A stretch of DNA of 64,000 nt. Origin: Slackia heliotrinireducens DSM 20476. Its GTDB lineage: Bacteria; Actinomycetota; Coriobacteriia; Coriobacteriales; Eggerthellaceae. The DNA is taken from contig NC_013165.1 of NCBI RefSeq assembly GCF_000023885.1, positions 1,612,001 through 1,676,000 of the forward strand. The letters run 5' to 3'. The notes under the pieces are model-generated. The model was not told the origin of the DNA. It was given only the letters and a program-made list of their open reading frames with translations, and did no database searches. Both the position numbers and the translations under genes were made by a program. Positions 47,426-60,132 of this stretch are shown here, in pieces; position 1 is the stretch's first letter; the number at the start of each line of letters is the position of its first letter.

Positions 47426-48676
47426 ATGGCCACACCCTTGCAGAAGAAACTGCTCGATTTAGTGCGCGAATTCGACAGCGAGTGCGCGCAACAGCACGTG
47501 CCCTATGCCCTTTTCGGGCAGACAGACATGCTGGCTCGCAATCACAAAGAATTTCGCAACTCAACCTACGAATTCCACGTCATGATGCCGGCCAACAAGG
47601 TCCATTCCGTTTTGGATGCGCTACTCAAGCAGGGCGGCGACCAGCGCGAAGTTGAAAGCCTGGCAACCAATCCCCTGCTCCGCTGGAACACGTACCGCTA
47701 CGTGCACGCAGGAACCACGCTGGTGAACCGCGATGATTTCCTGCATTTCAAATGCCGCGGCGTGGCGCTGGAAATCCATCCCGTGTACAGCAAGGGACCT
47801 TCCAAAATCCGGGCGGCGCTTTCGCTCGGCAACCATGCAGCCCATTTGAAGCCGTCCGTGTCTTTCAAATTCAAGAACGAAAAACAGGAAACGGCATACG
47901 GGTATTACAGGAAAACCGTACAGTACCTCGGCGAACAACGCGTCGCGAATTACCTTGAGGGCTTCTGCAAAAAGAGCGGATCGCTTAAAGCCGGCCGCGG
48001 ATGCTTGGAAACCCTCGACGGCGCCATCAAGACCGTTGAGAAACTGGATTTAACGAACACGAAGAAGGTTTCGTTCGAAGGCCTGGACCTGCCCGTTCTG
48101 GTTTCTTACGAGAGTTATCTCAAGGCCTATTTCGGCAGCAAATGGAAAGAAGAGAGCAAGAAGAAGCAGCGCCCCGCAAATACATCCGCAGTCATCTCCT
48201 CCGCAACGCGCCCGTATAAAGAGTCGATCGAGGCATTCAAGGGTATTGGAGTGGATTTCGACGACTTGGACGCCAGATATGTCAAGTACGAAGACCTGCT
48301 GCGCGACGTGCTTCCTGTCTCGAAAAAGAACACGGATCACGATTACCACATTGCCACGCTATGCGGGCATCGCATCGATACGTATGCCGAGCTCCGTGGT
48401 AAAGAGGACGAGCTTCATCGCTTGATTGCTGCAGGAAACTTCACACAGGCCAAAGCCATCATGCACAGTTACCTCGAATACACCGACAAGTATTTGAAAA
48501 TGGGGCTCGGATTCTTCGTTTCGCAGGAATTGCACGATATTGCTGCTGCCATCTGGGAACATGACGGAGATAAAGAAAAGGGAGCCAAGGTTTTAAGCTG
48601 CGTGCCCCCCGCTTTGAAAACCCGCAATCTCGACGAAACCGTCGGTGCTTTTCTGGCCGAAAGGAGCGAGAAGTAA
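47426..48676 (+). CDS. Degenerate LicD-like protein
   Basis: A 416-residue protein. The opening LQKKLLDLVREFDSECAQQHVPYALFGQ follows the LicD pattern. Where active LicD proteins carry G-T-L-L-G-A..H..F-I-P-W-D-D-D-x-D, this one reads TDMLARNHKEFRNSTYEFHVMM, so the metal-binding aspartates are gone. The C-terminal third (from about 255) is helical. It is probably non-catalytic: a partner or regulator of the active LicD encoded two bases downstream (stop 48676, start 48679). GAGGA precedes the start. Confidence 0.72.
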   Translation: MATPLQKKLLDLVREFDSECAQQHVPYALFGQTDMLARNHKEFRNSTYEFHVMMPANKVHSVLDALLKQGGDQREVESLATNPLLRWNTYRYVHAGTTLVNRDDFLHFKCRGVALEIHPVYSKGPSKIRAALSLGNHAAHLKPSVSFKFKNEKQETAYGYYRKTVQYLGEQRVANYLEGFCKKSGSLKAGRGCLETLDGAIKTVEKLDLTNTKKVSFEGLDLPVLVSYESYLKAYFGSKWKEESKKKQRPANTSAVISSATRPYKESIEAFKGIGVDFDDLDARYVKYEDLLRDVLPVSKKNTDHDYHIATLCGHRIDTYAELRGKEDELHRLIAAGNFTQAKAIMHSYLEYTDKYLKMGLGFFVSQELHDIAAAIWEHDGDKEKGAKVLSCVPPALKTRNLDETVGAFLAERSEK

Positions 48677-50310: not shown

Positions 50311-51495
50311 ATGGGCTCGCTCAAGTCGACATTGAAGTTCTTGGCCGCGGATGCCGTGTATGGGCACATGCTTCCGAACGCTTATCGGAAGGCATGTGCC
50401 CAGTATCCCATGGTCAAGGGTCGTGTCGTTTTTGTCGAGAACAACGGGTCCACCCTGTCCGAGAACTTCAGCCTCATCAGCCAGCGTTTGGAAAAGCATC
50501 CCGAATACTCTCAGGAGGCCGTGTTTCTGCATGAAACCACAGCAGGCTTGAAGGGCCGTCTGGACAACTCGAAGGCTTCCATGAGGGTTTTGGCGGAAGC
50601 GGAATACATCTTCCTCAACGACGCCTCGCAGCTGGTAAGCTGCTTGCCGCTGCGTGACGGCACGCGCGCCTTCCAGCTGTGGCATGCGTGCGGTGCATTC
50701 AAGAAATGGGGCTTGAGCTGCGTCGACCTGAAATACGGTGCCGACGCCCGCATGTTCAAGAAACACCCGTACTATGCCAATCTTTCTCTGGTCAGCGTGT
50801 CTTCCCCGGATGTTTCCTGGGCATATCAGGAGGCCATGGGCATCGCCGATGCGTCCACCATCAAGCCCTTAGGTGTAAGCCGCACCGATGTGTTCTTCAA
50901 TCAAGGCTTCCTTGTCCGGTCGAAGGAGAAGCTCGCAAGGCTCTTCCCTGCCGCAGACGGGAAACAAGTCATTCTGTACGCGCCCACGTTCAGGGGCCGT
51001 CCCGCAACGGCAGCAACGCCCCATGATCTTGACATCCAATTGCTCAAGGAGCGTTTCGCAGACACCCATGTGCTCATCATCAAGCAGCATCCTTTCGTGA
51101 AGGACCCTTACGCCATTCCCGTAGAATGCGCATCGTTCGCATACGAGGTTTCGGGCGAGCTTTCGATTTCGGAGCTTCTGGCTTGCGCCGACGTCTGCAT
51201 CACGGACTATTCTTCCATCGTATTCGAATACAGCCTGCTCGACCGGCCGATCTGCTTTTTCGCCACCGACCTGGAAGACTACCGATCGTGGCGTGATTTC
51301 TATTACGACTTCGAAGAGATGACGCCGGGCCCCGTATTCACGACCTCTGAAGACGTCGTGAACTGGGTCGATGCAACCGCGCATCGGTTCTCGAATGACC
51401 GCATCGCGGAGTTCCGCGACAAGTTCATGCGCGCCTGCGATGGCCACAGCACCGACCGCATCTGCACCGAGGTATTCGGCTCTACGCTCGAGTAA
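50311..51495 (+). CDS. CDP-glycerol-type glycerophosphotransferase (TagF/TagB family)
   Basis: A 394-residue Glyphos_transf (PF04464) protein with typical blocks: QLWHACGAFKKWG, LYAPTFRG, IIKQHPF and the C-terminal ISELLACADVCITDYSSIVFEYSLLDRPICFF. These enzymes add glycerol or ribitol phosphate units in teichoic-acid synthesis at the inner membrane face. It is shorter than full TagF polymerases and thus closer to primases or single-unit transferases. It completes the LicD operon. Its terminator has been split by the insertion element just downstream. Confidence 0.92.
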   Translation: MGSLKSTLKFLAADAVYGHMLPNAYRKACAQYPMVKGRVVFVENNGSTLSENFSLISQRLEKHPEYSQEAVFLHETTAGLKGRLDNSKASMRVLAEAEYIFLNDASQLVSCLPLRDGTRAFQLWHACGAFKKWGLSCVDLKYGADARMFKKHPYYANLSLVSVSSPDVSWAYQEAMGIADASTIKPLGVSRTDVFFNQGFLVRSKEKLARLFPAADGKQVILYAPTFRGRPATAATPHDLDIQLLKERFADTHVLIIKQHPFVKDPYAIPVECASFAYEVSGELSISELLACADVCITDYSSIVFEYSLLDRPICFFATDLEDYRSWRDFYYDFEEMTPGPVFTTSEDVVNWVDATAHRFSNDRIAEFRDKFMRACDGHSTDRICTEVFGSTLE

Positions 51496-51528: not shown

Positions 51529-51574
51529 TGAACCGTCTCCCATTTCTTGGACATGAGAAATGGGAGACTTCTTT

Positions 51575-52090
51575 ATGGATGGAAGAGTGCTTTATGACGA
51601 GACGACGCGGCGGCGGGCTGTAGCCCTTTTCGAAAAGGGCATGGGCTACAAGGCTGTCGCCAGCCTGCTGGACATTCCGCGTGAAACCGTGAGAAAATGG
51701 CTAGACGTATACAGATCCGTTGGCATCGAGGTCCTGGCCATGATGGGAAAGAAGCACACCACCTACTCGTTCGAGACGAAGCTGGCCGCCGTCAGGGCGG
51801 TCGTGGACGAGGGCATGACGAGGCCCGAGGCCATGGCCAAGTTCGGGATAGCCTCGCCAAGCTCCTTCAAGAAATGGCTGAAGGCGTACAGGGAGGAGGG
51901 CCCCGAGGCGCTCAAGCCGAAGCCCAAGGGGAGGCCGAGGGGGTCCGGCTCCCCGCCTAAAGAGCTAACGCGCGAGCAGGAGCTAGAACGTCGGATACAG
52001 AAGCTCGAAGCGGAGAACGCGTACCTAAAAAAATCGATAGCCCTGAAGGCGGAGAAGCGCTCTCGAACCGCGAGAAAGCCGCGGCCGTGA
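51575..52090 (+). CDS. IS3-family transposase OrfA
   Basis: A 171-residue protein with two helix-turn-helix domains (about 8-50 and 58-100; FEKGMGYKAVASLLDIPRETV and MTRPEAMAKFGIASPSSFKKW). A basic Pro/Lys linker and a leucine-zipper-like coiled coil (about 125-155) follow. The start ATG 51575 has GGGAG upstream; ATG 51560 is possible but lacks a site. It binds the IS ends and, through -1 frameshifting, forms the N-terminus of OrfAB. Confidence 0.92.
   Translation: MDGRVLYDETTRRRAVALFEKGMGYKAVASLLDIPRETVRKWLDVYRSVGIEVLAMMGKKHTTYSFETKLAAVRAVVDEGMTRPEAMAKFGIASPSSFKKWLKAYREEGPEALKPKPKGRPRGSGSPPKELTREQELERRIQKLEAENAYLKKSIALKAEKRSRTARKPRP
52027..52033 (+). other. Programmed -1 frameshift site of the IS
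   Basis: The heptamer A-AAA-AAA is in frame with OrfA (codons CTA AAA AAA TCG). The -1 frame is open from here straight into OrfB, so a fused OrfAB transposase can be made as in other IS3 elements. Confidence 0.85.
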
Positions 52091-52938
52091 GCGAGCTTTC
52101 GGGGCGATACCCCCTCGCCGACCTGCTGGAATGCGCCGATCTTGCCAGGTCGAGCTACTACTACGCGCTGTCGCACCCGAAGGCCCCGACCAGGCCGGAG
52201 CTCTGGGAGGCCGCCGCCGAGATATTCTCGCGCACCGCCAACGGCTGCGGCCACAGGCAGATCGCCATGTGCCTGCGCGCCGAGCAGGGCGTGCGCATAG
52301 CCGACAAGACCGTGCTCAAGATGATGCACGAGATGGGGATCAGCTGCGGGATCCGCCGCGAGACCGACTACCACAGGTACAACTCGTACAGGGGCGCAGT
52401 CGGCAAGACCTTCGAGAACATCATCGGCCGCGACTTCGCAGCCGACGGGCCGTGGGAGAAGATGGGCACCGACGTCACCGAGTTCAAGCAGCCCTGGGGC
52501 AAGGCCTACTTCGCGCCGGTCTACGACTTCGGCAGCAAGGAGATCGTCGCCTGGTCGACGTCGCTGCACCCCAACATGGCCCAGCAGCACGAGCTGCTCG
52601 ACCAGCTGCTTTCCAAGAAGCCGGAGGGTTGTGCCCCAATACTGCATTCCAATATGGGCTGGCAATACCAGCAGGCCGGGTGGTGCAACAGGCTGAAGGA
52701 GGCCGGCATCGTGCAGAGCATGTCCAGGAAGGGCAACTGCATCGACAACGGCGCGACGGAGCAGGTGTTCGGCCATCTGAAAGACGAATTCTTCCGGAAC
52801 CAGACATGGCCAAGCTTCGAAGAGTTCAGGCGCGACCTAGATGCATACATCGTCCACTGGAACACGAGGAGGCGTCAGGTTAAACTGAAGGGACTGACCC
52901 CGGAGGAATTCCGGAATCAGTCCCTACGTGCGGCGTAG
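52087..52938 (+). CDS. IS3-family transposase OrfB, probably inactive (D to N)
   Basis: A 283-residue protein with an HTH_21-like segment (about 25-95) and an rve integrase core. The catalytic triad should be D129 (GTDVTEF), D189 and E225 (ATEQVFGHLK). Residue 189 is Asn (HSNMGWQY; codon AAT at 52651), where the family has HSD. Spacing to E225 is exactly 35 residues, so this is the catalytic position. It starts at GTG, overlapping the OrfA stop (GTGA). All else is full length. Either this copy is dead or the base is an error. Confidence 0.9.
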   Translation: MSELSGRYPLADLLECADLARSSYYYALSHPKAPTRPELWEAAAEIFSRTANGCGHRQIAMCLRAEQGVRIADKTVLKMMHEMGISCGIRRETDYHRYNSYRGAVGKTFENIIGRDFAADGPWEKMGTDVTEFKQPWGKAYFAPVYDFGSKEIVAWSTSLHPNMAQQHELLDQLLSKKPEGCAPILHSNMGWQYQQAGWCNRLKEAGIVQSMSRKGNCIDNGATEQVFGHLKDEFFRNQTWPSFEEFRRDLDAYIVHWNTRRRQVKLKGLTPEEFRNQSLRAA

Positions 52939-53013: not shown

Positions 53014-54822
53014 CTAGACGAACAGGCGCATGCAGCCGCGCGGAACGCCGTGCGCCCAGATGCTTGCGATGCGAACGTTACCCGAGACAGTGGTCGCTTC
53101 GATCATCTGGTCGTTACCGATGTAGATGCCTACATGGCCGTTCCAGGAAAGGATGTCGCCGCGCTGCCTATCAGCCAGAGCCACGTGCTTCACACTGCCG
53201 TAGTTCCAGAAATTGTTGGCGTCGTGGCTGTGCCAACCGTTCGGACCTGTGGCGTAGTGGTTATAGGGGTTGAACTCCCCCAGGTCCATGCCGCAGGCAT
53301 AGGCGCATTGGTACACCAGGCCGATGCAGTCGACGCCCACGCCGGGCTGCAGCGAGTAGTTCCACATGTACGGCGTGCCCAGGTATTGGTACGCGCGTGC
53401 GATGAACACGTCGACACATTCGGAACGCGTCGCCTTACGTGTGATGCGGCTCGGCGTGACGTAATCGAAATTGGTTCCGTGGCCGTCCACATACACGTTT
53501 TTGCTGCTGACCTGGTAGTATTGCGACGGGTTTTGATAGCCGGCCTTGTACGTGGTCGAGTAGCTCGAATACGCACCGTTAGGCATGACGTAGTAGTCGC
53601 CAATCCAAGTATCCGTGGCCATCTTGCCGCCCTTGTAAGAGTAGTACCAGGTGGAATCAACCTTGTACCAACCGGTCAGCATGGCACCGTTCGTGCCCAG
53701 CCTGTAGTAATAACCGTCTTCCTTCAGCCAGCCGGTCTTCATTTTTCCGTTGCTGTTGAAGTAATACCATTTGCCAGATACTTTCTGCCATCCTGTAGCC
53801 ATGCTGCCCGATTCGCGCATGTAGTACCAGCAGTTGGTGCCCTTCAGCCAGCCAGTGGCCATGTCGCCGCCGGACTTGAGGTAATACCACTTGCCGTCAA
53901 TCTGCTTCCAGCCTTTGACCAGCGTAAAGTCCGAAGCAAGATAATAGTACTTGCCGTTGTAGGACGCCCACCCGGATTTCTGAACCATCTTGCAATTGGC
54001 CCGCATAAGGTACGTCTTGCCATCGACCGTCGTCGGCCCGACGGCGGCCGCACCGTTATCCTTCAGGTAGTACTTTTCGCCATCAAGGGTAAGCCAGCCG
54101 GTACGCATCCTGCCGGAGTTGGCAAAGTAGTACCAGGCATCGTCGATCTTCTGCCAGCCCTTGGACATGGATCCGCCTGGCTTCATGTAGTACGTGCCAT
54201 CTTCGAGCTTCAGCCATCCCGTCTGCATGGCGCCGCTTTTCGCCATGTAATACCAGGTTCCGTTGACTTTCTGCCAGCCCGTGGTCATTTTTCCATCGGA
54301 ATCCATGTAGTACCAGACGTTTTTCACCTTCTGCCAGCCTGTGGTCATGGCACCGGTATTCTCGTCGAAGTAATACCAGATGCCATCGATCTTCAGCCAT
54401 CCACGCACATACTCGCCGTTCTGGCCGTAGTATTTGGCACCGTCAACCTCTTGCCAGCCATCTGCAATGGCAGGTTCTTCGGGAGTCTCGCCAGTATCCT
54501 GGTCGTCCCCGTCTGCAAGCGTCTCCGCTTCGGCCTCATCAGGTTCTGCGGCATCAGGAGCAATGGAAGGCTCTTCACCGCCCGTAGCTTCGGACTCGAC
54601 CGCAGAATCACCATCCGCAACCGGCACATCGGCATCTGCAACGGCACTATCGGACGCATCGTCGGCAGGTTGCTCTTGGCCGACGGCTTCTGCATCCATT
54701 GCATCCGCCGCAACCGTATCGTCAGCAAAAGCCACTCCGCCCGAAAGGAAGACGAGCAAAACCACTGCCGCAACCATCATGGCGATGGGCAGAAAACGAG
54801 CTTCGCATTTCACGCTATGCAT
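53014..54822 (-). CDS. Secreted NlpC/P60 endopeptidase with ~15 cell-wall-binding repeats
   Basis: A 602-residue protein. The signal peptide ends near AFA-DD, an acidic Asp/Ala/Glu linker runs to about 135, and about fifteen choline-binding-type repeats fill about 135-430. The C-terminal NlpC/P60 domain has Cys499 (VDCIGLVYQ) and His563 (NGHVGIYIG). It cleaves peptidoglycan stem peptides. ATG 54822 is preferred: the upstream ATG codons at 54831 and 54861 sit on or before the AAAGGA ribosome site. It is the last gene after cytidylyltransferase, GatD-like, GatZ-like and LicD on the same strand. Confidence 0.92.
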   Translation of the reverse strand: MHSVKCEARFLPIAMMVAAVVLLVFLSGGVAFADDTVAADAMDAEAVGQEQPADDASDSAVADADVPVADGDSAVESEATGGEEPSIAPDAAEPDEAEAETLADGDDQDTGETPEEPAIADGWQEVDGAKYYGQNGEYVRGWLKIDGIWYYFDENTGAMTTGWQKVKNVWYYMDSDGKMTTGWQKVNGTWYYMAKSGAMQTGWLKLEDGTYYMKPGGSMSKGWQKIDDAWYYFANSGRMRTGWLTLDGEKYYLKDNGAAAVGPTTVDGKTYLMRANCKMVQKSGWASYNGKYYYLASDFTLVKGWKQIDGKWYYLKSGGDMATGWLKGTNCWYYMRESGSMATGWQKVSGKWYYFNSNGKMKTGWLKEDGYYYRLGTNGAMLTGWYKVDSTWYYSYKGGKMATDTWIGDYYVMPNGAYSSYSTTYKAGYQNPSQYYQVSSKNVYVDGHGTNFDYVTPSRITRKATRSECVDVFIARAYQYLGTPYMWNYSLQPGVGVDCIGLVYQCAYACGMDLGEFNPYNHYATGPNGWHSHDANNFWNYGSVKHVALADRQRGDILSWNGHVGIYIGNDQMIEATTVSGNVRIASIWAHGVPRGCMRLFV

Positions 54823-54875
54823 ATGTTTCATCCTTTCGCAAAAGGCATGGGACATGCCCATGCCTTCATGCTTCT

Positions 54876-56684
54876 TTACTCTTCGCCAGCGTTGTTCTCG
54901 CCTGAGAAGAAGTCGTTTTCAGCCTCACGGCCTCCTCCGACGCCTTCCGCATCGGCCCAGAATAACAAATCATGGCCGACTCGTTGATGCGGATACGGCG
55001 GAACCATGTAGTCACCGTATTGCATGCGCAGGAACTTCTCAGGGTTCTTCGGAAGCATGATTTCGATGCCGTCGAATTCAACACGCTGGGCCGGATAGAG
55101 ATCTTCCACCTTCGCCATCGTGTAAGACGGAACGAAACTGGCCACGTATTCCAGACCTTCTTCTTCGGCCACATCGTTGTAGCAGGTAACCGTCTCGTCG
55201 TAGTCCTTCTGGGTCTCATCCAACGAAATGCCCCAGTAGTGCTTGGCCAGAATCTTGCCGTTGTTCTGGGCAATCATCCAGTCCAGATTCTTGCGGTCCG
55301 TGGGCATCTCTTCGGCCTGTGCTTTCGGATACTGACGGTTGACCACGCGATGATGCGCCTTGGCCTTACCGCGGACCTTGCTCTTGAACGAACGCTGCTC
55401 GGCGAAATCATTCGGAATGTAGTCGAACGGGAACACATCCACGCAGATGCCCTTGTGGAACGGGCGGAACTTGTTGTAGTCAGTAATGTATTCCGTATCG
55501 TTCATGCGAACCTTCGAGAACAGGTACGGAATGTTCGGGTCGCTCTCGCGAGTCTGCAGGAAGAAGCGATCGCCGTCAAGAATTGCACCGGCTTCGGCCT
55601 TGAACCGCTCGTAGTCGGCGCGCAGCATGCCGATATCGATGTCGTCGTCCCAGGGAATGAAGCCGCCGTGGCGGACATATCCCAGCATAGTGCCGCCGCA
55701 GGCGAAGTACTGGATGCCCAGCTCCTGGCAGACGCGGTCGATCTCGACCACGATCTCCTTCGCGTCGTTCTGCAGACGGCGCAGTTCAGGGGTGGTTTCC
55801 AGAATGGGCTCCTTGCCCCAGATGTCAGGACGGTCGGGGCAGCGCACCATAAGGCCGGCAAGGTTCATGCGCTGGATTTCGCCGATGTCGGATTTCGGCA
55901 CCGTGTATGAACGCCAGCTGAGCATGCGGGTCACATTGCTCATGCCGCGGCCCTGATACCGCTTGGCCAGATGGTGGATGCGCCAGGACGCCAGACGCAA
56001 AGGCATGATCTTGTATCGCAGCATATGGCGGTCGATGATGGCGCCGTAACCGTCTTCATAGTTCGCCTCGTTCATGTGGCGGCAAGCGATGGTGCGCCTG
56101 AACGTGACGCTGCGGCGCTTCATCTGGCGGTAAAACTTCTTACGGGTGAAGAAGTCGTCGGGCACCTCATCGAACACCGTGGCCTGGATCATGCCGCGGA
56201 TGACCATGGGCAACGTGTTGTCACCGTACAGGATGTCCAAATCATCTTCAACGTACGTGTATTCGATGGCGTCGATGTGCGCATAGATTCGGCGGATGTT
56301 CTTGTACCGTTTATCCGTGAAGAACGGGTTGTACTTGAATCCCAGCTCTTCAATCTGCTCATCGGTCAGCGCGTTGAACGCCGCCTCGAACTTATCCATC
56401 TCAGGACGGAGGAATCCAAGGTCGATGCGGGAATAGCCAGGCAGGAAGTCCTGGTATGCAACAATGCCGGCAAGGGTTTTGCCGTACACGAAGTACTTGA
56501 TGCCGTGCTCTTCGCAGAACGCGTCGATCTTGCGCATCAGCTCAAGGTTGGCCTCTCGCGTCGCTTTGAGCAGAAGCGTGTCACGGTACGTGACATACGA
56601 CTGGTGCTCTAAGAAGCTCGACCCCATCACGTCTTCGATGAGGTCGAGTTCTTTTTGCGTTCTGGCCGTTTTGATGTCCGCCAT
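54876..56684 (-). CDS. Tandem LicD protein (degenerate + intact domain)
   Basis: A 602-residue protein. The N-terminal LicD-like domain (about 45-230) has lost most metal residues: GKTLAGIVAYQDFLPGYSRID (only D88 remains). The C-terminal LicD domain (about 300-575) is intact, with GGTMLGYVRHGGFIPWDDDI (330-349) and aspartates 346, 347, 348 and 350. The gene is 47 bases downstream of the GatZ-like gene and 53 upstream of the NlpC/P60 gene. The operon context points to a CDP-polyol as donor. The decayed domain may bind the acceptor glycan. Confidence 0.92.
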   Translation of the reverse strand: MADIKTARTQKELDLIEDVMGSSFLEHQSYVTYRDTLLLKATREANLELMRKIDAFCEEHGIKYFVYGKTLAGIVAYQDFLPGYSRIDLGFLRPEMDKFEAAFNALTDEQIEELGFKYNPFFTDKRYKNIRRIYAHIDAIEYTYVEDDLDILYGDNTLPMVIRGMIQATVFDEVPDDFFTRKKFYRQMKRRSVTFRRTIACRHMNEANYEDGYGAIIDRHMLRYKIMPLRLASWRIHHLAKRYQGRGMSNVTRMLSWRSYTVPKSDIGEIQRMNLAGLMVRCPDRPDIWGKEPILETTPELRRLQNDAKEIVVEIDRVCQELGIQYFACGGTMLGYVRHGGFIPWDDDIDIGMLRADYERFKAEAGAILDGDRFFLQTRESDPNIPYLFSKVRMNDTEYITDYNKFRPFHKGICVDVFPFDYIPNDFAEQRSFKSKVRGKAKAHHRVVNRQYPKAQAEEMPTDRKNLDWMIAQNNGKILAKHYWGISLDETQKDYDETVTCYNDVAEEEGLEYVASFVPSYTMAKVEDLYPAQRVEFDGIEIMLPKNPEKFLRMQYGDYMVPPYPHQRVGHDLLFWADAEGVGGGREAENDFFSGENNAGEE

Positions 56685-56731
56685 AATGCAAAAACTTTCT
56701 ATTCGAACGTGTAGTTACCCCTCAGCGTTCA

Positions 56732-58066
56732 TTATCGCGGTTCCATGGGGATTTCGGGAGCCCCCATTCCGCAATAATCGGTAGCGCGCAGGTAGCCGTC
56801 GATGCTGTCGCCAATGTGGTCCCAGATGATATCGGCAGCTTCGTTGCGAATTTCGCCACGACGTACACGATAATACTGAATGGGCAAGAATTGGCTGAGC
56901 ATGCAGTGCGGAATGACATTTCCGCTCAGATTCTCAACAAGTTTGTTACGCGCGGCTTTGATTTCGGGCTTAGCGAAATAGTAGCGGCAACGGTCGTAGA
57001 AGCTGTACGCACGCGCGATGCGCTGCTCGTTGGGCGTACCCTGATAATAGGATTCCCAGGAGGACGGGTCGTCCATCATGACCTTTTCCAGCGTGTCGCG
57101 GTAGTTGGACCACACTTCGGGGGTCTCGGCGTAAATCTCGCGCTCGATGTTCTCCAGGGCGAACAGGGATTCGCGCAGGGCGAACGTCAGAGCCGGGCCC
57201 ACCTTGAGGATGGCCACGCCGTCTTCAACCATACGGCCCAGGTTCTTTTGAGTCTGGTAGTCGGTGGAGTGACCCTCGATGCACAGCGGCTCCTCGCGCA
57301 TAGCGGCAACGGTTTCGGCAGCGCGCGGGCGGTTGTACTCGTCCAGATGGAACTCGTGGAACTCGACGCCCATCTCGATGACGATACCGACGACGCGGTC
57401 GAACACGTCATGCAGGCCATGGCGCTCGAAGGCTTCCCTGTAAATGCGGATGGTGTTGGTGGCGTCGCTGGCCGTGGTCACACCCATCTCGCCGGCGTTG
57501 AAGTCGCCGCCGGGAACGGGAACCTCGCTGCCGATGACGTACACGGGCTGCACTGCGTCAGGATGGCTCTTCTTGTACTCCTTGAAGGCCTCTTCAGCGG
57601 CCTGGCACATACGGGCACCGCGCTCGGCGCAGGTGGCGGTCAGGAAAGGCTGGTCGGGGTCGTCGGAGGCGACGCGCATGCTGGTGTCCAGGTGGATCTT
57701 CTCATAACCCGCAAGCACGCAGTCTGCTGCCAGGCGGCAGGCATTCTCCATGGCCTCGTCTTCGTTCAGGTTCGTCCAAGGCAGCGGGCCCAGATGGTCG
57801 CCGCCCAAAATGACCTGGGAGAACGGAACGCAGAGTTCCTCGGCCAGGCCCTTGACGAAATCAGCGAAATCAAACGGGGTCATGCCCGTGTAGCCGCCCA
57901 TCTGGTTCACCTGGTTGGAGGTGGACTCGATCAGGGCCGGCGTGCCGGTCTTGTAGGCACGCAGCAGCGCCGCACGGATGACGTCCTCGTTTGCCGAGCA
58001 GCACGAATAGATGCCGACACGACGTCCAGACTTGTTCTTCTGGACAATTTCCTGCATGGTATGCAT
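56732..58066 (-). CDS. GatZ/KbaZ-like class II aldolase-fold protein
   Basis: A 444-residue member of the GatZ/KbaZ family (PF08013). Motifs include GYTGMTPFDF, GGDHLGPLPW, the HLDTSMR strand and the ECxTDYQT-like EGHSTDYQT. In E. coli, GatZ/KbaZ support the catalytic GatY/KbaY subunits of tagatose-1,6-bisphosphate aldolase. No GatY partner is encoded here, so it may work alone or have another role. The start ATG shares a base with the stop of the dehydrogenase gene (TAATG), with GAGG upstream. Coupling to that gene and to a cytidylyltransferase suggests polyol- or ketose-phosphate chemistry. Confidence 0.88.
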   Translation of the reverse strand: MHTMQEIVQKNKSGRRVGIYSCCSANEDVIRAALLRAYKTGTPALIESTSNQVNQMGGYTGMTPFDFADFVKGLAEELCVPFSQVILGGDHLGPLPWTNLNEDEAMENACRLAADCVLAGYEKIHLDTSMRVASDDPDQPFLTATCAERGARMCQAAEEAFKEYKKSHPDAVQPVYVIGSEVPVPGGDFNAGEMGVTTASDATNTIRIYREAFERHGLHDVFDRVVGIVIEMGVEFHEFHLDEYNRPRAAETVAAMREEPLCIEGHSTDYQTQKNLGRMVEDGVAILKVGPALTFALRESLFALENIEREIYAETPEVWSNYRDTLEKVMMDDPSSWESYYQGTPNEQRIARAYSFYDRCRYYFAKPEIKAARNKLVENLSGNVIPHCMLSQFLPIQYYRVRRGEIRNEAADIIWDHIGDSIDGYLRATDYCGMGAPEIPMEPR

Positions 58067-59124
58067 TAGTTGACCTCTTTCCATGAGTCAATGAGGATCT
58101 TGCCACGGACCTTTTCCGTCCCGACGAAGCGGTCGAAAGCCGTAGCCGTCTCCTGCAATTTATAAACACCATCAATCATCTCGGGCACCACGCGCATGAT
58201 GCCCCGGTTGAAGAAATCGTCTACGTTTACCCATTCGACACCGGGCCACGGTGCGGAATAGGACATCCACGAACCGATCAGGGTAAGTTCCTTGCGATTG
58301 AGCATCTCCCATTCGCGGATGGTGAAGGCCACATCGTCTTTTGGCGTGCCGACGAACACCACCGTGCCCTTGCTGCCCGCGACGGCCATCGCATCGATGA
58401 TGGTCTTGGGCGTGCCGGCAGTATCGAACACGTAATCAAAGCCCTTGCCGCCGTTGAAAGCCTTGGCGGTTTCCAGCCAGCCCTCTTCAGAAGTGTTGAC
58501 CAGGTTTTCCAGCCCTGCCGCCTTCGCAGCGTCGAGTCGCACCTGGGAGTGGTTCGAAACCACCACAACACCTGCGCCGTAACCGGACAGGGCCTGTCCC
58601 AGCAGAATGCCGATGGTGCCGGCGCCGATGACGATAGCCGAGGCGCCTTCACGGAAATTCGCCAGCTCGATGCCGTGGAGGGCAACCGTGGCCGGCTCGT
58701 AGAGCGCGCCTTCCATGTCGGTCACTTTCTCACCCAGCGGAAAGACGTTCTCGACAGGCAGGACCACGTATTCGGCCATGCTGCCCTGAGAACGGGAGCC
58801 GACGAAGCCGTAATGGCCGCACAAGGAGAAGTTTCCGTTCTTGCAGTCCTCGCATTCGCCGCAGGGCTCCAGAGGAATGCCCGAAACGCGGGTGCCGACC
58901 AGAGAAGCGTCGACGCCCTGGCCCACCGCGGTGATTTCGCCGGAGAACTCGTGGCCTAAAACCAGCGGGAAGTTATGGACAGCGCCTTTATGGAAGCGCG
59001 GCACGTCCGATCCGCAGATGCCCGTGAAGTGCACGCGCACCTGCACCTGGCCGGCACCCGGCTCAGGCGTCGGCAGTTCCAGGTATTCCATTGTCTTCGT
59101 GTCTTGCAGCTGAGCGGCAAACAT
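58066..59124 (-). CDS. GatD-like zinc polyol-phosphate dehydrogenase
   Basis: A 352-residue medium-chain dehydrogenase. Catalytic zinc ligands are C37 and H58-E59; structural zinc ligands are C88, C91, C94 and C102; the nucleotide loop is GAGTIG. The segment RKELTLIGSWMSYSAPWPGVEW and the early ICGSDVPRFHKGAVHNFP closely follow E. coli galactitol-1-phosphate 5-dehydrogenase. Other options are sorbitol dehydrogenase or a TarJ-type ribulose-5-phosphate reductase. Encoded 11 bases after the cytidylyltransferase, it would supply or consume the polyol phosphate that is activated. Confidence 0.9.
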   Translation of the reverse strand: MFAAQLQDTKTMEYLELPTPEPGAGQVQVRVHFTGICGSDVPRFHKGAVHNFPLVLGHEFSGEITAVGQGVDASLVGTRVSGIPLEPCGECEDCKNGNFSLCGHYGFVGSRSQGSMAEYVVLPVENVFPLGEKVTDMEGALYEPATVALHGIELANFREGASAIVIGAGTIGILLGQALSGYGAGVVVVSNHSQVRLDAAKAAGLENLVNTSEEGWLETAKAFNGGKGFDYVFDTAGTPKTIIDAMAVAGSKGTVVFVGTPKDDVAFTIREWEMLNRKELTLIGSWMSYSAPWPGVEWVNVDDFFNRGIMRVVPEMIDGVYKLQETATAFDRFVGTEKVRGKILIDSWKEVN

Positions 59125-59135
59125 CTAAAGCACTC

Positions 59136-59855
59136 CTAGAAGTAGTAGTTATGGAACAGCTCCCTGAAGGCGTCCATGTCGTGGCGGTACGTAATCTTCA
59201 GGTTGATGAGGTCGGTCGGAACGATCTTCATCTTGATGTCGTGGGCCAATGCCAAAGCACCGGCCGACGTGTACAATTCAAGATGCTCCTCGTCCATCTC
59301 TTTATAGATGGGCCAGATCAGACCGAATTTAAAAGCCTCGGGGCTTGCGCCGGTCACCACGGTCTGACGTGGGATAACGCTTACGAGCTCCTTGCTTTCG
59401 GGATCCATGCCATACACGGTGTCGTACTGGCATTCGGCCATGGTCGCTCCGCCGAAGTTCGCCGCAGCGGAGGACAGGTCACCCAAATGGGCGGCATCCA
59501 CATAAGGATGCGTGGTGTCGTGGATGAATACGATGTCGTCGTCGGTTGCCATTTCGGCCACCTTGGTCAAGCCGTTTTTGACAGATTCCGAGCGGCTGGA
59601 GCCACCTGGGACCACGCAGTAATCGAAGCCTTCAAGCCCAAGGTCCGCAATCCACTTGTCCGTGAAGTCGACCCATTTGCGATGGCAGACGATAACGGTG
59701 TAGTCGGCGAAACCAAGCTCGGCATACTTCTCCACGAGGTAGCTGAACGTGGGCTTTCCCTCAACTTCAACAAACTGTTTGGGCACGTCAGCACCGAAAC
59801 GCGTACCGGAGCCGCCCATCATGAGCAGCAAGTACTTCTTATAACGTGTCGTCAA
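59136..59855 (-). CDS. IspD/TarI-family cytidylyltransferase
   Basis: A 239-residue nucleotidyltransferase. The CTP loop LLMMGGSGTRFGADVPKQF and the VIVCHRKW, PGGSSRSESVKNGL and IHDTTHPYV segments place it in the IspD/TarI/ISPD family. It starts at TTG with AAGGAG seven bases upstream. IspD proper is a housekeeping isoprenoid enzyme, but this copy leads an operon with a polyol-phosphate dehydrogenase and LicD, the setting of TarI and human ISPD, which make CDP-ribitol. The 277-base AT-rich gap upstream should hold the promoter; TATAGT near 59905 is a weak -10. Confidence 0.9.
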   Translation of the reverse strand: MTTRYKKYLLLMMGGSGTRFGADVPKQFVEVEGKPTFSYLVEKYAELGFADYTVIVCHRKWVDFTDKWIADLGLEGFDYCVVPGGSSRSESVKNGLTKVAEMATDDDIVFIHDTTHPYVDAAHLGDLSSAAANFGGATMAECQYDTVYGMDPESKELVSVIPRQTVVTGASPEAFKFGLIWPIYKEMDEEHLELYTSAGALALAHDIKMKIVPTDLINLKITYRHDMDAFRELFHNYYF

Positions 59856-60132
59856 AACGAGCTCCTTAAAGTGAAATTGCCTGAAAACATGTGTTTGTCC
59901 ACTATAGACATATCTCTACTTGTTTTGGGAGTTCCTGACCAAAATCACGTTATCTTAAAAATTAGCCTTGGTTAATTTCCATAATTCATTTCGTTATGAC
60001 ATCGTACGGAGGCATAAAACACGAAGGTGCATTTTAGTTCGCATAGGCGATCCGACACGATACCCCGCCTGGATAACGCAAAATCAGACACGCATACGCA
60101 ACAGGCAATCCGCAATAGGGCCTTTGGTGAAA

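Follow-up and report, generated by a model that had tools for sequence, protein, structure and literature searches.

A candidate operon for CDP-galactitol and its transfer to a surface polymer in Slackia heliotrinireducens

Described systems closest to the operon

Several described systems share parts with a four-gene operon of Slackia heliotrinireducens that encodes an IspD/TarI-family cytidylyltransferase, a GatD-like zinc dehydrogenase, a GatZ/KbaZ-like protein, and a tandem LicD protein. The genome is one contig of 3,165,038 bases, and its bases 1612001-1676000, the whole stretch of 64,000 nucleotides in which the operon lies, are referred to here as the window. The TarI/TarJ route is like the operon in joining a cytidylyltransferase of the same superfamily to a zinc-type dehydrogenase beside teichoic acid genes, but the operon has a dehydrogenase of GatD type and an additional GatZ, and TarI is separately present in the same genome. 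Mnp1/Mnp2, which make cytidine diphosphate (CDP)-mannitol in Streptococcus pneumoniae 35A, and HS5.18/HS5.17, which make CDP-6-glucitol in Campylobacter jejuni HS:5, likewise use a PF01128 cytidylyltransferase and lead from fructose-6-phosphate to a CDP-hexitol for a surface polymer. They differ, as far as the available part of PMC10918830 goes, in having a PF01370 reductase that acts after activation, no 4-epimerase, and another hexitol. The gat operon of Escherichia coli has the same GatZ and GatD families, but it is catabolic and includes phosphotransferase system genes and GatY, whereas the Slackia genome has no class II aldolase match (see below). Mammalian ISPD and fukutin/FKRP also pair a maker of a CDP-alditol with a LicD-family transferase, but the operon has a bacterial tandem LicD, one half of which is degenerate, and CDP-galactitol is predicted instead of CDP-ribitol. 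Finally, the related bacterium Eggerthella lenta has a strain-variable teichoic acid region in which the presence of tarI/tarJ tracked features putatively identified as ribitol; that region is of ribitol or glycerol type, and the main text, in the form available, contains neither “hexitol” nor “galactitol” (PMC10234575).

We consider it fairly probable that the operon encodes a dedicated three-enzyme route from fructose-6-phosphate to CDP-galactitol (the GatZ, GatD, and IspD-like genes are hereafter called the module), and are less sure of the step in which LicD would transfer the product to a surface polymer. The full proposal, in which a biosynthetic GatZ leads to CDP-galactitol and an FKRP-like tandem LicD places galactitol phosphate in or on teichoic acid, giving a new class of wall polymer, is held tentatively, at slightly under an even chance. 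The substrates, the products, the acceptor, and the order of reduction and activation are those that we infer from sequence. In line with the first-pass annotation, the prediction that fits best is a CDP-polyol pathway that serves a surface polymer and whose polyol is probably a hexitol, for instance galactitol. That annotation had also held that no bacterial route of this composition is described, which stands for the gene set but not for CDP-hexitols in general, given that CDP-mannitol and CDP-glucitol are known (PMC10918830, available part). Any novelty therefore concerns the gene set and the predicted product. No mention of CDP-galactitol, CDP-hexitol, galactitol phosphate, or dulcitol phosphate was found among the open-licence PMC papers listed by the searches, a set outside which many of the classic studies on teichoic acid chemistry lie.

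If the proposal is correct, both the nucleotide-activated alditols and the constituents of teichoic acid would gain a new member, GatZ/KbaZ proteins would have a role in biosynthesis, and the ISPD-FKRP pair would have a counterpart in bacteria. The genes could then also serve as a marker from which to predict the wall chemistry of Coriobacteriia associated with humans, such as Slackia exigua, whose teichoic acids may matter in phage and immune recognition.

Enzymes of the predicted route and their linkage

The GatZ-like enzyme would open the route by converting fructose-6-phosphate to tagatose-6-phosphate. E. coli GatZ and KbaZ have been reported to be fructose-6-phosphate 4-epimerases that act alone, and E. 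coli cells with either of them plus a phosphatase yielded tagatose, which FbaA, KbaY, and GatY did not (PMC11907403, in the part available). The genome has one GatZ gene and no match to PF01116 (class II aldolase, GatY/KbaY) in a search whose control was positive in 11 of 14 named genomes, so that, as first annotated, GatZ stands without a recognizable GatY/KbaY partner. This need not be a gap, because of the activity reported for the E. coli proteins. All seven active-site residues proposed for GatZ (C29, E53, D96, H97, E187, H272, and K294, numbered in the 450-residue long form) are kept in the window protein. The same seven occur in 19/19 aligned proteins, including E. coli GatZ, KbaZ, and catabolic-type relatives; they thus mark an intact enzyme and not a module-specific one.

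The GatD-like dehydrogenase would then reduce tagatose-6-phosphate to galactitol-1-phosphate. Its closest solved chain is the E. coli galactitol-1-phosphate dehydrogenase (E 3e-65; the next chain, 1.8e-39), and PRK10309 is the top family among the 23 NCBIfam families listed for it (264 bits; the next, 166). Seven of the eight positions that we presume to be the zinc ligands of GatD are kept in 14/14 GatD-like rows, and the eighth in 13/14. The window protein has all of these presumed ligands and also has in common with E. coli GatD the stretch GSWMxYSxPWPG, which was noted in this analysis and is not a published motif; among the 12 module relatives, the GatD proteins of loci L037 and L058 read GAWM.

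Because the dehydrogenase is GatD-like and the known CDP-mannitol and CDP-glucitol routes use PF01370 reductases, reduction before activation is favored. The reverse order would make CDP-6-tagatose first and then reduce the nucleotide-linked ketose, as in the known CDP-mannitol route, and both Mnp1/Mnp2 of S. pneumoniae and HS5.18/HS5.17 of C. jejuni activate fructose-6-phosphate before its reduction, by means of a PF01128 enzyme (PMC10918830, available part). For this operon we regard that order as improbable, given that the known reductases are PF01370 proteins, whereas the nearest relative of the zinc enzyme here is GatD, whose substrate is the free phosphate.

With reduction first, the IspD-like enzyme would combine galactitol-1-phosphate with cytidine triphosphate to give CDP-galactitol. 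The protein is a member of the IspD/TarI superfamily (PF01128, 87 bits vs. a cut-off of 27) that scores below the cut-offs of both IspD (TIGR00453, 116 vs. 181 bits) and TarI (NF001183, 106 vs. 166 bits), and its best solved match is 4jis, a ribitol-5-phosphate cytidylyltransferase. Between module IspD-like proteins and the TarI of this genome, identity is 24-31%. In the alignment, the equivalents of R20, K27, D106, R157, and K213, which we take to be catalytic in the IspD family, are kept in 14/14 module proteins. Where E. coli IspD has Arg109, 14/14 module proteins have His (His116 in the operon copy), as against 0/9 other family members, eight of which have Arg and one Ala. In a tree that has several long branches and a midpoint root, a branch with 100/99 support has all 14 module proteins on the same side.

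Six places in the genome match PF01128, including the operon copy. One is another ispD at C1:2180324, adjoining an ispF-like gene (ispF by eye), and another is a TarI about 7 kb from the operon, whose score against the model for ribitol-5-phosphate cytidylyltransferase is 359 bits (cut-off 166). After this TarI come a zinc dehydrogenase in the TarJ position (Pfam match only, with no NCBIfam match at 1e-20) and then a TarL-like gene. Two further places lie inside a second LicD cluster, and a partial match is found at 2434007. The second cluster (L009:9714-11606) has two consecutive IspD-family proteins. By eye, the N-terminal part of one resembles a helix-turn-helix; its partner has Phe and Ala at the equivalents of Asp106 and Arg109 and is possibly inactive.

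A TarI that exceeds its curated cut-off so near the operon argues against ribitol as the operon's polyol. The route could also lead to a different alditol, such as talitol, altritol, or a pentitol derived from a 4-epimerised pentulose phosphate, as would be allowed by family scores below the curated cut-offs and by the positions, that of Arg109 among them, at which the IspD-like protein departs from IspD and TarI. We find this distinctly unlikely, in that GatZ and GatD jointly indicate tagatose-6-phosphate and ribitol is already covered by TarI. A further candidate, an ordinary isoprenoid IspD or a second TarI/TarJ (ribitol) pair beside a relic of galactitol catabolism, has IspD-family membership in its favor and was rejected as very unlikely because of the separate TarI, the lack of a GatY-type class II aldolase match, and the separate ispD, which excludes the genomic half of the ordinary-IspD case (that the genome should have no other). 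The conserved linkage described below also stands against it, as does the reported absence of carbohydrate use: S. heliotrinireducens RHS 1T, a sheep-rumen anaerobe, is reported to be asaccharolytic and “does not utilize carbohydrates” (PMC3035243, available part).

Linkage was surveyed in 396 Coriobacteriia genomes. The IspD-like protein is found at E<=1e-30 in 15 of them, with 53-100% identity in 12 (the module genomes) and 29-33% in the other three; GatZ is also found in 15/396. GatZ and the IspD-like clade occur together in 11 genomes, always on one contig and 1.0-1.6 kb apart, with GatD filling the gap in the loci read (Fisher's exact p 2e-17 for co-occurrence of GatZ and the IspD-like gene, uncorrected for kinship). 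In the twelfth module genome, G011, which is 82% complete, the IspD-like gene is followed by GatD and then by the contig end. In the two Parvibacter loci, the IspD-like gene has the opposite orientation. Because it recurs in related genomes, the four-gene arrangement is more than chance. Co-occurrence of all four genes, for which the first-pass annotation had suggested a survey, is seen in part: the three-gene core recurs, and LicD is strongly but not invariably linked to it.

A scan of the contig collection gave 14 GatZ loci, 11 of them with adjacent GatD and IspD-like genes; it overlaps the 396-genome set and is not independent of it, and its eight-residue patterns, taken from this GatZ, favor close relatives. 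The sole match named as outside Coriobacteriia, L041 (Erysipelotrichaceae), has no IspD-like neighbor in the stretch read. Among 396 genomes drawn from the phylum, the IspD-like clade was found at E<=1e-36 in the S. heliotrinireducens genome only.

Four genomes have GatZ and no IspD-like gene (G008, G020, G032, and G026; loci L063-L066). Sugar ATP-binding cassette (ABC) transporter-like genes lie near GatZ in the first three, with a SIS-domain gene in two (by eye; the SIS-domain family scan covered the L063 gene only), and the G026 copy, which lies at the end of a contig, has no clear context. The GatZ tree does not separate wall from catabolic copies. At L063:6105-9659, from another Coriobacteriia family, a module-clade GatZ (L039 in the tree) stands beside SIS-domain, BadF-type, and sugar ABC-like genes, a context that suggests exchange between wall and amino-sugar loci.

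The tandem LicD protein and the proposed transfer step

In the last step of the proposed pathway, the tandem LicD would transfer galactitol phosphate from CDP-galactitol to a surface polymer, probably wall teichoic acid. The sequence match to PF04991 (158 bits) is confined to the second half of the protein. Profile-to-profile comparison aligns the first half with the second at 99% probability over 239 columns; because these two profiles alone were compared, the E-value should not be read as that of a database search. The first half of the window protein has lost the aspartate motif (PGYSRIDLG vs. PWDDDIDIG), and 8/8 aligned LicD sequences carry an unchanged PWDDDID in their second half. The tandem arrangement first annotated is thus confirmed as a degenerate first half plus an intact second half. 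A predicted structure of moderate quality (pLDDT, the predicted local distance difference test score, 72.9) gave 13 matches at E<=0.001, all of them FKRP chains with template modeling (TM)-scores of 0.2-0.3. It should be noted that FKRP may be the sole solved relative, so this match shows family and not substrate.

LicD matches at E<=1e-40 occur in 10 of the 396 Coriobacteriia genomes, nine of which are module genomes; in the tenth, G317, the match is weaker and covers residues 297-573 only. A LicD orthologue at E<=1e-90 is present in 9/12 module genomes, split into pieces in G190 and G350. In Parvibacter caecicola (L036), a Glyphos_transf (TarL-like) gene comes directly after GatZ, and the situation is similar in L038 at a contig end; in Parvibacter, a TarL/TagF-like transferase would replace LicD in the transfer step. 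At L058:4184-7741 and L035:11250-15134, the LicD orthologue lies inside open frames of 1185 and 1294 codons, respectively, with further LicD-like stretches.

The gene context is that of wall polymers. Within ~16 kb of the operon are a glycerol-3-phosphate cytidylyltransferase (TagD) over its cut-off, a WecA/TagO-family gene below cut-offs, another LicD, and Glyphos_transf genes, two by Pfam and two more by resemblance only. ABC transporter genes within the same distance are presumably TagG/TagH-like, judging by sequence. Relatives of TagGH, TagD, or TagO lie within 10 kb in 7/11 module loci of the contig-collection scan (L030, L031, L032, L034, L036, L037, and L038).

A number of points weigh against the proposal. 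Members of these enzyme families can change substrate, and the GatD-like protein, at 264 bits, is under the PRK10309 equivalog cut-off of 550, as the IspD-like and GatZ-like proteins are under their NCBIfam cut-offs. The epimerase activity of E. coli GatZ/KbaZ was called low, and the GatZ active-site residues were proposed by modeling without mutagenesis (PMC11907403, in the part available). These seven residues, equally kept in catabolic-type copies, provide no module marker, and in the GatZ tree the module group includes two nested copies whose neighbors are SIS-domain and sugar ABC-like genes. Both Parvibacter GatD proteins (L036:8383-9831 and L038:8508-9761) carry an insertion of ~50 residues, and that of L038 has lost one presumed zinc ligand (the Glu144 equivalent). 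As to the transfer step, 3/12 module genomes have no strong LicD orthologue (the two Parvibacter, one with a weak match at E 5.9e-15 and one with none, and G011 with none), and the orthologue is not directly downstream of the operon in G383 and G190. No relatives of TagD, TagO, or TagGH were seen in the stretch read of 4/11 module loci (L028, L029, L033, and L035). Furthermore, the genome has choline-binding-type proteins and a choline-kinase/nucleotidyltransferase fusion, so LicD could move phosphocholine.

On this last explanation, which is compatible with CDP-galactitol and bears on LicD only, the tandem protein would be a phosphocholine transferase of lic1 type that stands beside the polyol module; LicD is the lic1 transferase (PMC10434233, available part). 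The fusion, of LicC/LicA type, joins a winged helix, a nucleotidyltransferase, and a choline/APH-kinase part (L008:3304-5169), and has matches in 8/12 module genomes, although that in G325 is a short piece. However, G383, G190, and G293 have strong LicD orthologues and no fusion match at E<=1e-10. LicD therefore tracks the polyol module better than it tracks choline activation, with the reservation that two of these three are fragmented drafts and drafts may miss genes. Dependence of LicD on choline activation is thereby weakened, and with LicD tracking the IspD-like clade and three other LicD matches elsewhere in the genome, we consider a phosphocholine role for this protein unlikely.

Operon structure and neighboring genes

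Minus-strand reading frames agree with the four genes of the first-pass annotation, both in their coordinates (Table 1) and in their spacing (a gap of 11 bases between IspD and GatD, an overlap of one between GatD and GatZ, and a gap of 47 between GatZ and LicD), and the family calls made there are matched by Pfam and NCBIfam. The IspD-like gene starts with TTG at 59855, with an AAGGAG site upstream. The longest GatZ-like frame opens at 58084, and the ATG at 58066 is preceded by a purine-rich site; the Met-His equivalent to it is the start of the GatZ homologues in L034 and L036. The most likely start is thus predicted to be ATG 58066, giving 444 residues and the one-base overlap. A scan for promoters and terminators was uninformative, with fewer sites than the shuffle means (2 vs. 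4.2 and 5 vs. 7.4).

Table 1. Features of the operon and its surroundings (window positions)
Feature	Position	Strand	Match or remark
IspD/TarI-family cytidylyltransferase, 239 aa; predicted galactitol-1-phosphate cytidylyltransferase	59136..59855	-	PF01128, 87 bits
GatD-like zinc dehydrogenase, 352 aa; predicted tagatose-6-phosphate reductase (to galactitol-1-phosphate)	58066..59124	-	PRK10309, 264 bits
GatZ/KbaZ-like protein, 444 aa; predicted fructose-6-phosphate 4-epimerase	56732..58066	-	PF08013, 570 bits
Tandem LicD protein, 602 aa; predicted CDP-hexitol:glycan hexitol-phosphate transferase	54876..56684	-	PF04991, 158 bits
Intergenic region upstream of the operon	59856..60132	-	No sigma-70-like site listed (simple scan)
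NlpC/P60 protein with choline-binding-type repeats; surface context, outside the pathway	53014..54861	-	
Glyphos_transf (TarL/TagF-like) transferase; wall polymer context	50311..51495	+	
Second LicD protein, 540 aa	48679..50301	+	

Two side observations concern the neighboring genes. An IS3/IS150-like transposase pair (window 51560-52938, by eye) lies between the Glyphos_transf and NlpC/P60 genes and thus within the wall cluster. Directly before the intact second LicD is a 416-residue protein with no Pfam match (window 47426-48676) that has, by eye, the look of a degenerate LicD; a degenerate plus an intact LicD may be a theme in this cluster.

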